The notes below the pieces were generated by a model. The model did not search any database and was not told where the DNA came from. It saw only the letters and a program-made list of their open reading frames with translations. This document shows, in pieces, positions 29,787 to 32,858 of a stretch of 64,000 nt of DNA (position 1 is the stretch's first letter; every line of letters starts with the position of its first letter). Source of the stretch: Pseudobdellovibrionaceae bacterium. GTDB taxonomy: Bacteria > Bdellovibrionota > Bdellovibrionia > Bdellovibrionales > UBA1609. The translations under genes were made by a program, and so were the position numbers. Location: positions 248,001 to 312,000 of the forward strand of contig JAMLIO010000001.1 of NCBI GenBank assembly GCA_023954155.1, written 5' to 3'.

Positions 29787-29922
29787 CAGCTACAATAAGT
29801 CTTTTACGACCCTTTGCTCTTCTGCGAGATAAAACTTCTCTTCCATCTTTAGTGGCCATACGTGATCTGAATCCGTGTACAGATTTTCTTCTTCTACGAC
29901 TTGGTTGATACGTCCTTTTCAC
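29773..29922 (-). CDS. rpmH: 50S ribosomal protein L34
   Basis: A 49-residue protein read directly from the sequence: it starts (V/M)[18 protein letters not shown], continues [20 protein letters not shown] and ends [10 protein letters not shown], unmistakably L34. The GTG at 29922 has aaggag eight bases upstream. It is the first gene of the leftward operon and is divergent from dnaA. It overlaps rnpA by 14 bases. Confidence 0.97.
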
Positions 29923-29997
29923 GAAATTACTCCTTCGAGATTTTTACCTAGAGACGCAATAAATCACAAAGCATATTCATTGGTCAAGTGATTGAAC

Positions 29998-30006
29998 TTA
30001 TCCACA
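29998..30006 (+). promoter_or_regulatory. DnaA box between rpmH and dnaA
   Basis: TTATCCACA is an exact match to the high-affinity DnaA box. Lying about 50 bases upstream of the dnaA start, it could mediate dnaA autoregulation or act as the upstream part of a bipartite origin. Confidence 0.85.
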
Positions 30007-30054
30007 GGGCATGCTACCAAATAAGGCTCGTCTGGCGTGTATCTGGGGGGACTC

Positions 30055-31518
30055 GTGTCTGAAAAGCAAGACTTTTGGGCTAAAATCAAACAAAATTTGA
30101 AACAAAAAGACAACCAAAGGCTCAATTTGTGGATTGAGCCGACTGAATTGCTCAATATTCAAGAGTCTGATGGCAATTTAGAGTTCCAGTTGGGTGTCCC
30201 CACTTTTTTACATGAATACTGGATCACACAGAACTTTTTACCCAATATTCGAGAAGAGATCCGTAATTTCTATTCTAACGACTTTGAACTCAAGCTTATC
30301 GTAGACCCTGCCATAAATAAAAGAAACGAGGCCTCACAAAGCCTAGCGGCAGAAAGTCATTTAGCTAAGACTTTAACGCAACACCAAGAAAGAACGCAAA
30401 GTTCTTTTATTTCAAATAGTTATAAGCCACCCGAAGGGTTAAACCTAGGTACGGCTAAAAAAGAAACTCGCAGTTTAAGCTCAAATGAGCAACTGACCTC
30501 TTCCTATACCTTTTCCTCATTTGTTGTAGGCAGAAATAATGAATTTGCCCATGCGGCCTGCCATAGCGTTGCCGAAAACCCTGCCGCTAGGAAATATAAC
30601 CCTTTATTTATATATGGACCCACGGGACTGGGTAAAACTCATTTACTAAATGCTGTGGGAAATCACATACTTACAAATAACCCAAGCATTCGTATCCGTT
30701 ATGTAACTGGGTCTCGCTTTTTTAATGAGTGTATTGCCAGTATTCGAAGACAAGAAATGGATAAATTTAGACAGAGGTACTGTGAAGATAGCGATCTACT
30801 CCTTTTAGATGATGTCCATATCTTTAATAGAGGGGAAGCTGTCCAAGAGGAATTCTTCCATATTTTGAACGAATATCTTGAAACCAACCGCCAAGTTGTC
30901 GTTTCGAGTGACAAAATGCCTAAAGATATCAAAGGTTTAGCTGAGCGTATCAGAACGAGACTCGAATGGGGACTTATTGCAGACATCCAAATGCCTGATG
31001 TAGAAACTCGAATAGCTATTTTAAGATATAAGGCCGAACAGCAAAATATTAAGCTTCCTGCGGACGTGGTGAACTACATCGCTCGAACCTTTAAAAAGTC
31101 CATCCGAGAGCTGGAAGGCAGTTTAAATAAGGTTAAAATTTTCTCAGATCTCAATGGTGTAAATATTGATATTAACCTTTGCAAAAAGATTCTTGAGGCT
31201 CATGTGGATCAACGGACTTTAACTGTGGAAGAGGTCCAACAGATGGTTGCGGACCATTATAAGGTCCGAGTCAGTGATCTCAAGTCTAAATCAAGAATCA
31301 AACCCATTGTGACTGCTCGCCAAGTGGCTATGTTTTTAATCAAACAACATCTTGGTAAATCCTTAGTTGAAATTGGGCGCGCATTTGGGGGACGAGATCA
31401 TACAACGGTCATTAACGCAGTGAAACGCACAGAAATTCAACAGTCTAAAGATTCTGATTTGGCTAGTGATATTGATGAGTTAGTGACCTCTATCCACAAT
31501 ATCACAGGTGTGCAATAA
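30055..31518 (+). CDS. dnaA: Chromosomal replication initiator DnaA
   Basis: 487 residues from GTG 30055 (MSEKQDFWAKIKQNL), chosen because a run of G's (30045-30050) lies upstream at suitable distance; an in-frame GTG at 30037 would add six residues. DnaA binds boxes at oriC and melts DNA. Domain I is N-terminal, the AAA+ domain has Walker A GPTGLGKT (188-195) and Walker B LLLLDDVH, and domain IV carries the box-recognition GGRDHTTV motif near 445-452. oriC follows directly. Confidence 0.97.
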   Translation: MSEKQDFWAKIKQNLKQKDNQRLNLWIEPTELLNIQESDGNLEFQLGVPTFLHEYWITQNFLPNIREEIRNFYSNDFELKLIVDPAINKRNEASQSLAAESHLAKTLTQHQERTQSSFISNSYKPPEGLNLGTAKKETRSLSSNEQLTSSYTFSSFVVGRNNEFAHAACHSVAENPAARKYNPLFIYGPTGLGKTHLLNAVGNHILTNNPSIRIRYVTGSRFFNECIASIRRQEMDKFRQRYCEDSDLLLLDDVHIFNRGEAVQEEFFHILNEYLETNRQVVVSSDKMPKDIKGLAERIRTRLEWGLIADIQMPDVETRIAILRYKAEQQNIKLPADVVNYIARTFKKSIRELEGSLNKVKIFSDLNGVNIDINLCKKILEAHVDQRTLTVEEVQQMVADHYKVRVSDLKSKSRIKPIVTARQVAMFLIKQHLGKSLVEIGRAFGGRDHTTVINAVKRTEIQQSKDSDLASDIDELVTSIHNITGVQ

Positions 31519-31700
31519 GTGGATTGTGGATAAGGCTGTGGATTAGGAGTTTGTAACTTTGTGGGTAACTTTTCCTGTGTAAAACCCCCCTTTAAAAAGG
31601 CTTTTTGTACAGGCTGTTATCCACAAAAAAAGATTAGTAATTTTAGCGGTTTAGGGTATTTTAGTTCATATTCACAGCCCCTACTACTACTACTAAATTT
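31519..31700. other. oriC: DnaA boxes and DnaA-trio unwinding element
   Basis: Between dnaA and dnaN. On the minus strand are a perfect DnaA box at 31525-31533 (tgtggataa) and one-mismatch boxes at 31537-31545 and 31560-31568. On the plus strand there is a perfect box at 31617-31625 and a weaker box at 31668-31676 (atattcaca). The last box is followed by gccc and then five exact CTA repeats (31681-31695), the DnaA-trio arrangement known from Bacillus subtilis, leading into an A/T-only stretch. The divergence of gene direction supports this as the origin. Confidence 0.9.
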
Positions 31701-31736
31701 TTAAAATTAAAGAATTAGTAAAAAGAAAGGATAAAA

Positions 31737-32858
31737 ATGAAAATCCAAATCGATCAAAAAAACTTTTTAGGCTTAATCTCTAAAGCACAAAATGTAGTTG
31801 AGAAAAGAAACTCCATGCAAATTTTGGTTAATGTTTTAATTGAAGCTAAAGAATCTAAGATTAAAATTTATGCAACTGATCTTGAAGTGAGTTTAACTGA
31901 TGAAATGGAATGCAAAGTCCTTCAAGAAGGTAAAGCTGTTATAAATGCAAAGAGTCTTTTTGATATAGTTAAAGAATTACCAGAAGGTGAGATTGCTATT
32001 GAAAAGAAAAAGAACCACTGGGTTGAAATTCAACACGGAAAAAGTTTTTTTAATATAGTAGGACTAAATCCTGAAGAGTATCCAGTGTTTCCCACATTTT
32101 CCACAAACAAATTCACAAAGTTAAGTTCAAGTATTCTTTTAGATATGATTGAGAAAACAATTTATAGTGTTTCAAATGATGAAACTCGTTACCACCTCAA
32201 CGGTGTATATTTTGAAAAGCAAAATAAAAATGGAAAACAGTATTTAAGAATGGTGGCTACTGATGGACATAGATTAAGCCTAGTAGATAGGGAAATCCCT
32301 GTGGATAATGTGGAAAGTTCTTTCAATGCAGGTGTAATCATTCCACGAAAAGGCTTAAATGAACTTAAAAAACTTGTTGAACAGTCTCAAGGTGACTTGG
32401 AAATGGCTATTGAAGGTGCTCAACTTGTAATTAAATCAGGTCCCACATTTTTATTTATAAGACTGATTGAAGGTAAGTACCCTAATTATCAACAGCTTAT
32501 TCCACAAAATCTTCCTCAATCTTTAGAAGTAAATCGCGAGACATTACTCTCGTCCCTTAAAAGGGTTTCTTTATTGTCGAATCAAAAATCTAAAGGTGTT
32601 ACTTTTTCATTAACAGATGGAAAAATGGAAATCACTTCTAATAATCCAGAAATGGGCGATGCTAAAGAAGAGTTAGAAATCAACTACAAAGGTCAAAGTA
32701 TTAAAATTGGTTTTAATGCTAGATATGTTTTGGATGTTCTAAGTAGTTTTGATGAAGATACGCTAAGTATCTCACTTAATGACCAGCTTTCACCAGGAAT
32801 GATCAAACCAAAGAACGATACGGATTACACATGTGTTGTAATGCCTATGAGAATTTAG
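31737..32858 (+). CDS. dnaN: DNA polymerase III sliding clamp (beta)
   Basis: 373-residue beta clamp, standard length, that tethers polymerase to DNA. Recognisable segments are RNSMQILVNVLIEA, LRMVATDGHRLSLV and a C-terminal YTCVVMPMRI, the conserved partner-binding end. Ribosome site aaagg lies upstream of the ATG. A perfect DnaA box (32300-32308) lies within the coding sequence. recF follows after 12 bases. Confidence 0.97.
   Translation: MKIQIDQKNFLGLISKAQNVVEKRNSMQILVNVLIEAKESKIKIYATDLEVSLTDEMECKVLQEGKAVINAKSLFDIVKELPEGEIAIEKKKNHWVEIQHGKSFFNIVGLNPEEYPVFPTFSTNKFTKLSSSILLDMIEKTIYSVSNDETRYHLNGVYFEKQNKNGKQYLRMVATDGHRLSLVDREIPVDNVESSFNAGVIIPRKGLNELKKLVEQSQGDLEMAIEGAQLVIKSGPTFLFIRLIEGKYPNYQQLIPQNLPQSLEVNRETLLSSLKRVSLLSNQKSKGVTFSLTDGKMEITSNNPEMGDAKEELEINYKGQSIKIGFNARYVLDVLSSFDEDTLSISLNDQLSPGMIKPKNDTDYTCVVMPMRI

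Follow-up and report, generated by a model that had tools for sequence, protein, structure and literature searches.

Between dnaA and dnaN of a Bdellovibrionales-type bacterium lies a spacer in which DnaA boxes, a perfect (CTA)5 array and an IHF-like element are found together, and the question it raises is how such an origin would be opened. The spacer was studied within a 64,000-nucleotide stretch of DNA (the window), situated on the 589,898-base contig C1 of a genome of 2.44 Mb in 15 contigs that is 99% complete. The gene order in the window is dnaA-oriC-dnaN-recF-gyrB, with recF and gyrB identified by family search. On the left of the window, nine of nine sampled pieces of the contig had a negative GC skew, and on the right nine of nine had a positive one, the pieces being spread with gaps over bases 1-562000; inside the window the two left quarters are negative and the two right quarters positive, and the cumulative skew has its minimum at about 30 kb. 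Position between dnaA and dnaN, a cluster of DnaA boxes and a sign change of the GC skew, the three marks by which we judged an origin, are thus all present.

Table 1. Features of the origin region in window coordinates, with offsets given from the trio array and genus counts taken over 46 genera.
Feature	Position	Strand	Details
rnpA, yidC, mnmE, mnmG	left of dnaA		translations read by eye, without family search
dnaA	30037..31518	+	NCBIfam TIGR00362, 476 bits (cut-off 344)
oriC (dnaA-dnaN spacer)	31519..31736	+	218 bp; assigned from boxes, skew and gene context
DnaA box, 9/9	31525..31533	-	site near -155 at least 7/9 in 38/46 genera
DnaA box, 8/9	31537..31545	-	site near -143 at least 7/9 in 26/46 genera
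DnaA box, 8/9	31560..31568	-	consensus match
Weak DnaA-box-like site, 7/9	31576..31584	-	consensus match
Distal strong DnaA box, 9/9	31617..31625	+	site near -63 at least 7/9 in 33/46 genera
IHF-like site TTTTAGCGGTTTA (predicted)	31641..31653	+	7/9 against WATCARNNNNTTR, at -40
Trio-proximal DnaA box ATATTCACA, 7/9	31668..31676	+	site near -13 at least 7/9 in only 24/46 genera
GC-rich spacer GCCC	31677..31680	+	between box ATATTCACA and array
DnaA-trio array (CTA)5, five exact	31681..31695	+	inferred DnaA-bound strand minus, 3'-GAT-5' x5
AT-rich stretch	31696..31733	+	likely part of the unwinding element
dnaN	31737..32858	+	NCBIfam TIGR00663, 335 bits (cut-off 138)
gyrA	36492		translation read by eye, without family search

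Gene context, the skew reversal, the box cluster, the uniqueness of the array in the genome and its conservation across the order together make it highly probable that this spacer is the oriC of a Bdellovibrionales-type bacterium with a working basal unwinding system (BUS), and the preliminary description of the sequence, which had called it an origin, is upheld on these grounds. The same description had read a box, GCCC and (CTA)5 followed by an AT-rich tract, and had likened this arrangement to the BUS of Bacillus subtilis; both readings stand, the former over 31668-31733, where A+T amounts to 85% in 31697-31730. A BUS has been defined by at least three 3'-NAN-5' triplets and by a box with at most two mismatches lying no more than 16 bp from the trios (PMC8287927); here there are five triplets, and ATATTCACA has two mismatches and a 4-bp spacer. 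Box, GC-rich spacer, 3'-GAT-5' repeats and the contact residues of DnaA are all shared with B. subtilis (PMC6669920, PMC10721633), although the proximal boxes of the latter are in tandem (PMC8287927), in contrast to the single weak box found here, and its cryo-EM model contains six trios rather than five. A search of the 2.44 Mb genome found CTACTACTACTACTA a single time and did not find its reversed control.

DnaA-box-like sites were defined as matches of at least 7/9 to the consensus, and counts by genus, for these boxes as for the IHF element, use one locus for each of 46 genera. Six such sites fall in the 218-bp spacer; the rest of the window, with 29900-32320 left aside, has 4.8 per kb. 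The motif TTWTNCACA has 20 matches across the window against 10.3 expected, a weak signal on its own, so that it is the local cluster that counts; likewise, TTATNCACA has 160 matches genome-wide against 89 for its reversed control, and single boxes are therefore no origin marker. The claim of strong boxes on both strands holds for the spacer as a whole, but not for the box beside the trios, ATATTCACA being weak with its two mismatches. Many loci of the order have a single weak trio-side box, for example TTTTCCACG or TTATCAACG. Two tandem DnaA-like boxes precede (CTA)5, in the classical BUS layout, at six loci outside the order (L096, L099, L102, L105, L111 and L124). A perfect DnaA box lies just upstream of dnaA at 29998-30006, possibly serving dnaA autoregulation or a bipartite origin, and an 8/9 box is found within the 3' end of dnaA at 31490-31498; in Bdellovibrio bacteriovorus, two boxes have been reported in the 3' end of dnaA (PMC5124646).

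The origin of B. bacteriovorus resembles the present one in having several DnaA boxes, a GC-rich spacer, a trio array and an AT-rich element (PMC5124646). According to the same source, its dnaA-dnaN spacer measures 232 bp, compared with 218 bp here, dnaN-recF-gyrB follow downstream as in the window, four trios were counted as opposed to the five exact CTA repeats described here, and the site of unwinding was put at the origin's 5' end. The DnaA encoded in the window shares 46-62% best-segment identity with those of six relatives, four of which are titled Bdellovibrio, Pseudobdellovibrio or Bdellovibrionales and one Streptomyces griseus, evidently a misnamed MAG; the name of the order is taken from such titles. 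A Bdellovibrio-like dnaA-dnaN locus (L003) occurs in a public record titled as a Streptomyces griseus MAG, a name that looks wrong.

For comparison we assembled 125 loci: 87 of them come from the same order, where they represent 46 genera, and 38 from other parts of the phylum. The 87 are a subset of the matched genomes (DnaA was matched in 42 of 47 and in 233 of 240), and most dnaA loci of the family that scored low or were fragmentary were left out. A perfect (CTA)5 is found at 42 of the 87 loci (9/32 in the window's family, 27/40 in a second family, f2, and 6/15 in other families), 83 of the 87 agree with (CTA)5 in at least 12 of its 15 bases, and a run of six or more CTA occurs at none of the 125 loci. 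Five CTA is thus a pattern of the clade and no oddity of this genome. Within the one phylum that this comparison covered, the preliminary description's view that an unbroken run of five is unusually regular in a Gram-negative origin finds no support, the more so as trios were published for B. bacteriovorus in 2016 and the BUS has been widely reported: it was predicted in 1755 of 2070 origins, and Gram-negative modules were tested in vitro and in Helicobacter pylori (PMC8287927). The locus itself is ordinary and the trio array of Bdellovibrio is already in print; the interest is in the clade-wide pattern.

That pattern extends to position. The array starts 159-166 bp past the dnaA stop codon at 81 of the 87 loci; of the remaining six, four have a distance of 172-174 bp, and the other two have distances of 131 and 352 bp. 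Helical phasing was considered for the four at 172-174 and dropped: the distal box of L037 remains at -63, so the extra length lies elsewhere. At four loci of another family of the phylum, f17 (L129, L130, L132 and L133), neither CTA nor TAG was found twice or more in a row in dnaA-dnaN spacers of 447-596 bp, in contrast to most loci of the order; their origins may lie elsewhere or contain deviant trios. In genus-weighted counts the array columns are the most conserved of the spacer. The first base is C in 94-99% for each trio, the third is A in 100% for trio 1, 93-95% for trios 2-4 and 71% for trio 5, and the middle base is T in 100, 90, 81, 92 and 84% for trios 1 to 5. The middle T of trio 1 is present at 87 of 87 loci, a count that depends on a one-triplet manual shift of L072, L085 and L091.

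A second conserved stretch lies between the boxes near -63 and -13 and fits the degenerate IHF consensus WATCARNNNNTTR. When both strands were scanned from offset -150 to -14, the best place was -39 (+) with a mean of 6.21/9, the mean of all offsets being 3.43 (sd 0.58) and the next best 5.17. This score exceeded 2000 of 2000 column permutations, the highest of which reached 6.01, and -39 was also the best place in each subset (0/300 in the window's family, 0/300 in f2, and p 0.05 in the 13 genera of other families), although these permutation values are not independent tests, as the sequences share ancestry. In 41 of 46 genera a score of 7 or more was found no further than three bases from the -39 register, as opposed to 14% of shuffles; in the window the score is 7/9 at -40 but drops to 4 at -39. 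Of the 38 loci from outside the order, the 19 with an array of at least 12/15 (L122 being placed by hand) gave -40 (+) as the best place (p 0.003 of 1000), with -37 (-) tied in another scan. A first scan with free offsets had been only mildly above background (mean 7.39, as compared with 6.77 in shuffles).

Which protein would recognize this element was approached from both sides. When CtrA, Fis, CRP, sigma70, GATC and DnaA-box motifs were tried as its identity, none beat permutation. The genome of the window encodes three HU/IHF-family proteins, including an IHF-alpha that passes the cut-off and adjoins a pheT-like frame (read by eye) and an IHF-beta candidate at 99.5 bits, below the cut-off of 115. 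IHF-alpha was searched for in 88 genomes of the order, and IHF-beta, DnaD and DciA in the window's own genome. Of the 88, 68 have a match to the IHF-alpha model TIGR00987 above its cut-off, and every one has a match at E up to 0.001; since 9 of 14 controls, including the HU-bearing B. subtilis, also match at that level, with one over the cut-off, weaker matches may be HU and only those passing the cut-off count. According to a review, B. bacteriovorus has an IHF homologue (PMC11318664). The main text describing the B. bacteriovorus oriC contains IHF only within the title of a reference and gives no IHF site (PMC5124646), and no report of an IHF site in a Bdellovibrio oriC was found in the part of the open-licence literature searched.

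From its position and sequence, IHF probably, though by no means surely, introduces a bend between the strong distal box at 31617 and the trio-proximal box. The main alternative is that the element, spanning -39 to -27, binds HU, a lineage-specific regulator or, weakly, DnaA rather than IHF. The presence of three HU/IHF-family proteins would allow for this, as would the fact that only the TTR end of the IHF consensus is strongly kept (T93, T76, A64/G24). A DnaA box, however, fits the element poorly (p 0.79), whereas the IHF consensus is reached by none of 1000 permutations in the order and also beats permutation outside it. Binding by another protein is thus a possibility to be taken seriously, if not a probable one.

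The substitutions within the array offer a view of what DnaA may read. By parsimony on a DnaN tree, the middle base changed from T to G 18 times, from T to A 8 times and from T to C never, with two changes each from A to G and from G to T. Ungapped flanking columns, in which some changes are misalignments, gave 84, 333 and 86 changes from T to G, A and C, respectively, and the trios differ from these flanks in G versus C (Fisher, p = 1.5e-5) and in G versus A (p = 2.8e-7). In this count L074, which has a broken array, was excluded, and L072, L085 and L091 were moved by one triplet by hand. For the DnaA-bound minus strand, the pattern suggests that the central A may become C and less often T, but not G; the eight changes to a central T, six of which fall in trio 3, count against a strict rule. 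C is a good substitute for the central A in B. subtilis, whereas G and T are not (PMC10721633), and the Bdellovibrionales trios echo these assays in that C seems to be tolerated and G not. Other recognized bases had been foreseen (PMC10721633), as had trios without a middle adenine (PMC8287927); no report of natural trios with a central C was found in the part of the open-licence literature searched.

The absence of T-to-C changes could also stem from mutation bias or from the placement of degenerate arrays, and not from base reading by DnaA. Placement is a fair concern, as three loci were shifted by hand and without these triplet shifts the counts of G:A:C become 16:8:2; moreover, the flanks include the misalignments mentioned, and the DnaN tree was built quickly: 30 of its 84 inner branches are open, and branches are long for several loci, above all L134, L091 and L062. 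Yet the counts are 20:8:0 with nothing excluded and still 11:5:0 when eight degenerate or oddly placed loci are removed. A mutation bias is at odds with the near-equal numbers of T-to-G and T-to-C changes in the flanks and with those at fourfold sites of dnaN, where 177 overlapping pairs gave 1942 T/G and 1781 T/C differences (p 1.0e-5 against the trios). Both changes give the same G+C, so duplex stability is no explanation, and the asymmetry points to strand-specific reading. Bias or placement therefore seems an unlikely source of the pattern.

The DnaA proteins themselves are for the most part in keeping with base reading. Asn187, Ile190, Ile193, Arg202 and Glu228 contact the trios in B. subtilis DnaA (PMC10721633), and the five corresponding residues of the window's DnaA (N230, I233, I236, R245 and E272) are all identical. 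Among the 65 DnaA proteins in which residues were read, out of the 87 loci, 61 have the asparagine aligned with Asn187, including 15 of 15 from loci with a middle G; against this, the four that lack this asparagine, expected to read the central amine, nonetheless have arrays with only central A. DnaD reads the opposite strand in B. subtilis, through TnnT (PMC10201434). In the window's own 99% complete genome, the DnaD family PF07261 has no match, the controls B. subtilis and Lactococcus lactis both matching, and DciA is present; the minus-strand constraint is thus visible without DnaD. B. subtilis, in contrast to this genome with its IHF-alpha and DciA, is described in a review as having DnaD and no IHF (PMC13220808).

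The comparison with Escherichia coli bears on whether the trios matter at all. Its oriC, on the DUE-R1-IHF site-R5M side, likewise has two co-oriented boxes with an IHF-like site between them, the boxes being 55 bp apart and those of the window about 50 bp, and the IHF consensus scores 7 at the best places between the two. In E. coli the strong box (9/9) is on the DUE side and the weak one (7/9) is distal, the reverse of the order in the window. On the strength of this likeness, the origin might work mainly as in E. coli, with IHF looping DnaA back to an AT-rich element in single-stranded form, the CTA array then being a relic or a minor aid. A 2026 review, which terms the E. coli trios putative, raises the possibility that trios become dispensable where IHF bends the DNA (PMC13220808). 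A relic would, however, be expected to decay, whereas the array is the best conserved part of the spacer, down to the first C and the middle T of trio 1, and we consider this alternative quite improbable. That (CTA)5 is a functionless simple repeat near the origin by chance, as slippage can yield short perfect trinucleotide repeats, is hardly credible for an array that is unique in the genome, keeps its place at most loci, never exceeds five repeats and has patterned substitutions.

We propose that Bdellovibrionales origins are natural hybrids, in which a length-limited array of five trios is joined to an E. coli-like IHF-bend module at near-fixed geometry, so that an IHF bend would not replace the trios. 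On the captured strand, DnaA would recognize a central base that bears an amine (A or C, with T less often and G not accepted), and would do so in a genome without DnaD. This proposal is tentative, and we put its probability at about 45%. For the likely working of the origin as such, the layout, the uniqueness of the array, the skew reversal, the conservation and the substitution pattern come from the present analysis, and the DnaA filament, base capture and bending are borrowed from work on B. subtilis and E. coli. DnaA would bind the oriC boxes on both strands, and the box at 31668-31676 would seed a filament running into (CTA)5, which would capture the minus-strand bases of the 3'-GAT-5' repeats; the duplex would then open toward the AT-rich tract on the dnaN side, where the helicase would be loaded. 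Less certainly, an IHF bend between the boxes at -63 and -13 would bring upstream DnaA to the opening site.

For searches that rely on NAN-type trios (PMC8287927), these findings mean that arrays with a central C can be missed or shortened. The Bdellovibrionales pattern also calls into question the suggestion that IHF bending makes trios unnecessary (PMC13220808), and the comparison lends evolutionary support, from a far-off phylum, to the base-capture rule proposed from B. subtilis. If true, the hybrid reading would separate the DnaA rule from the DnaD rule, which overlap in B. subtilis.
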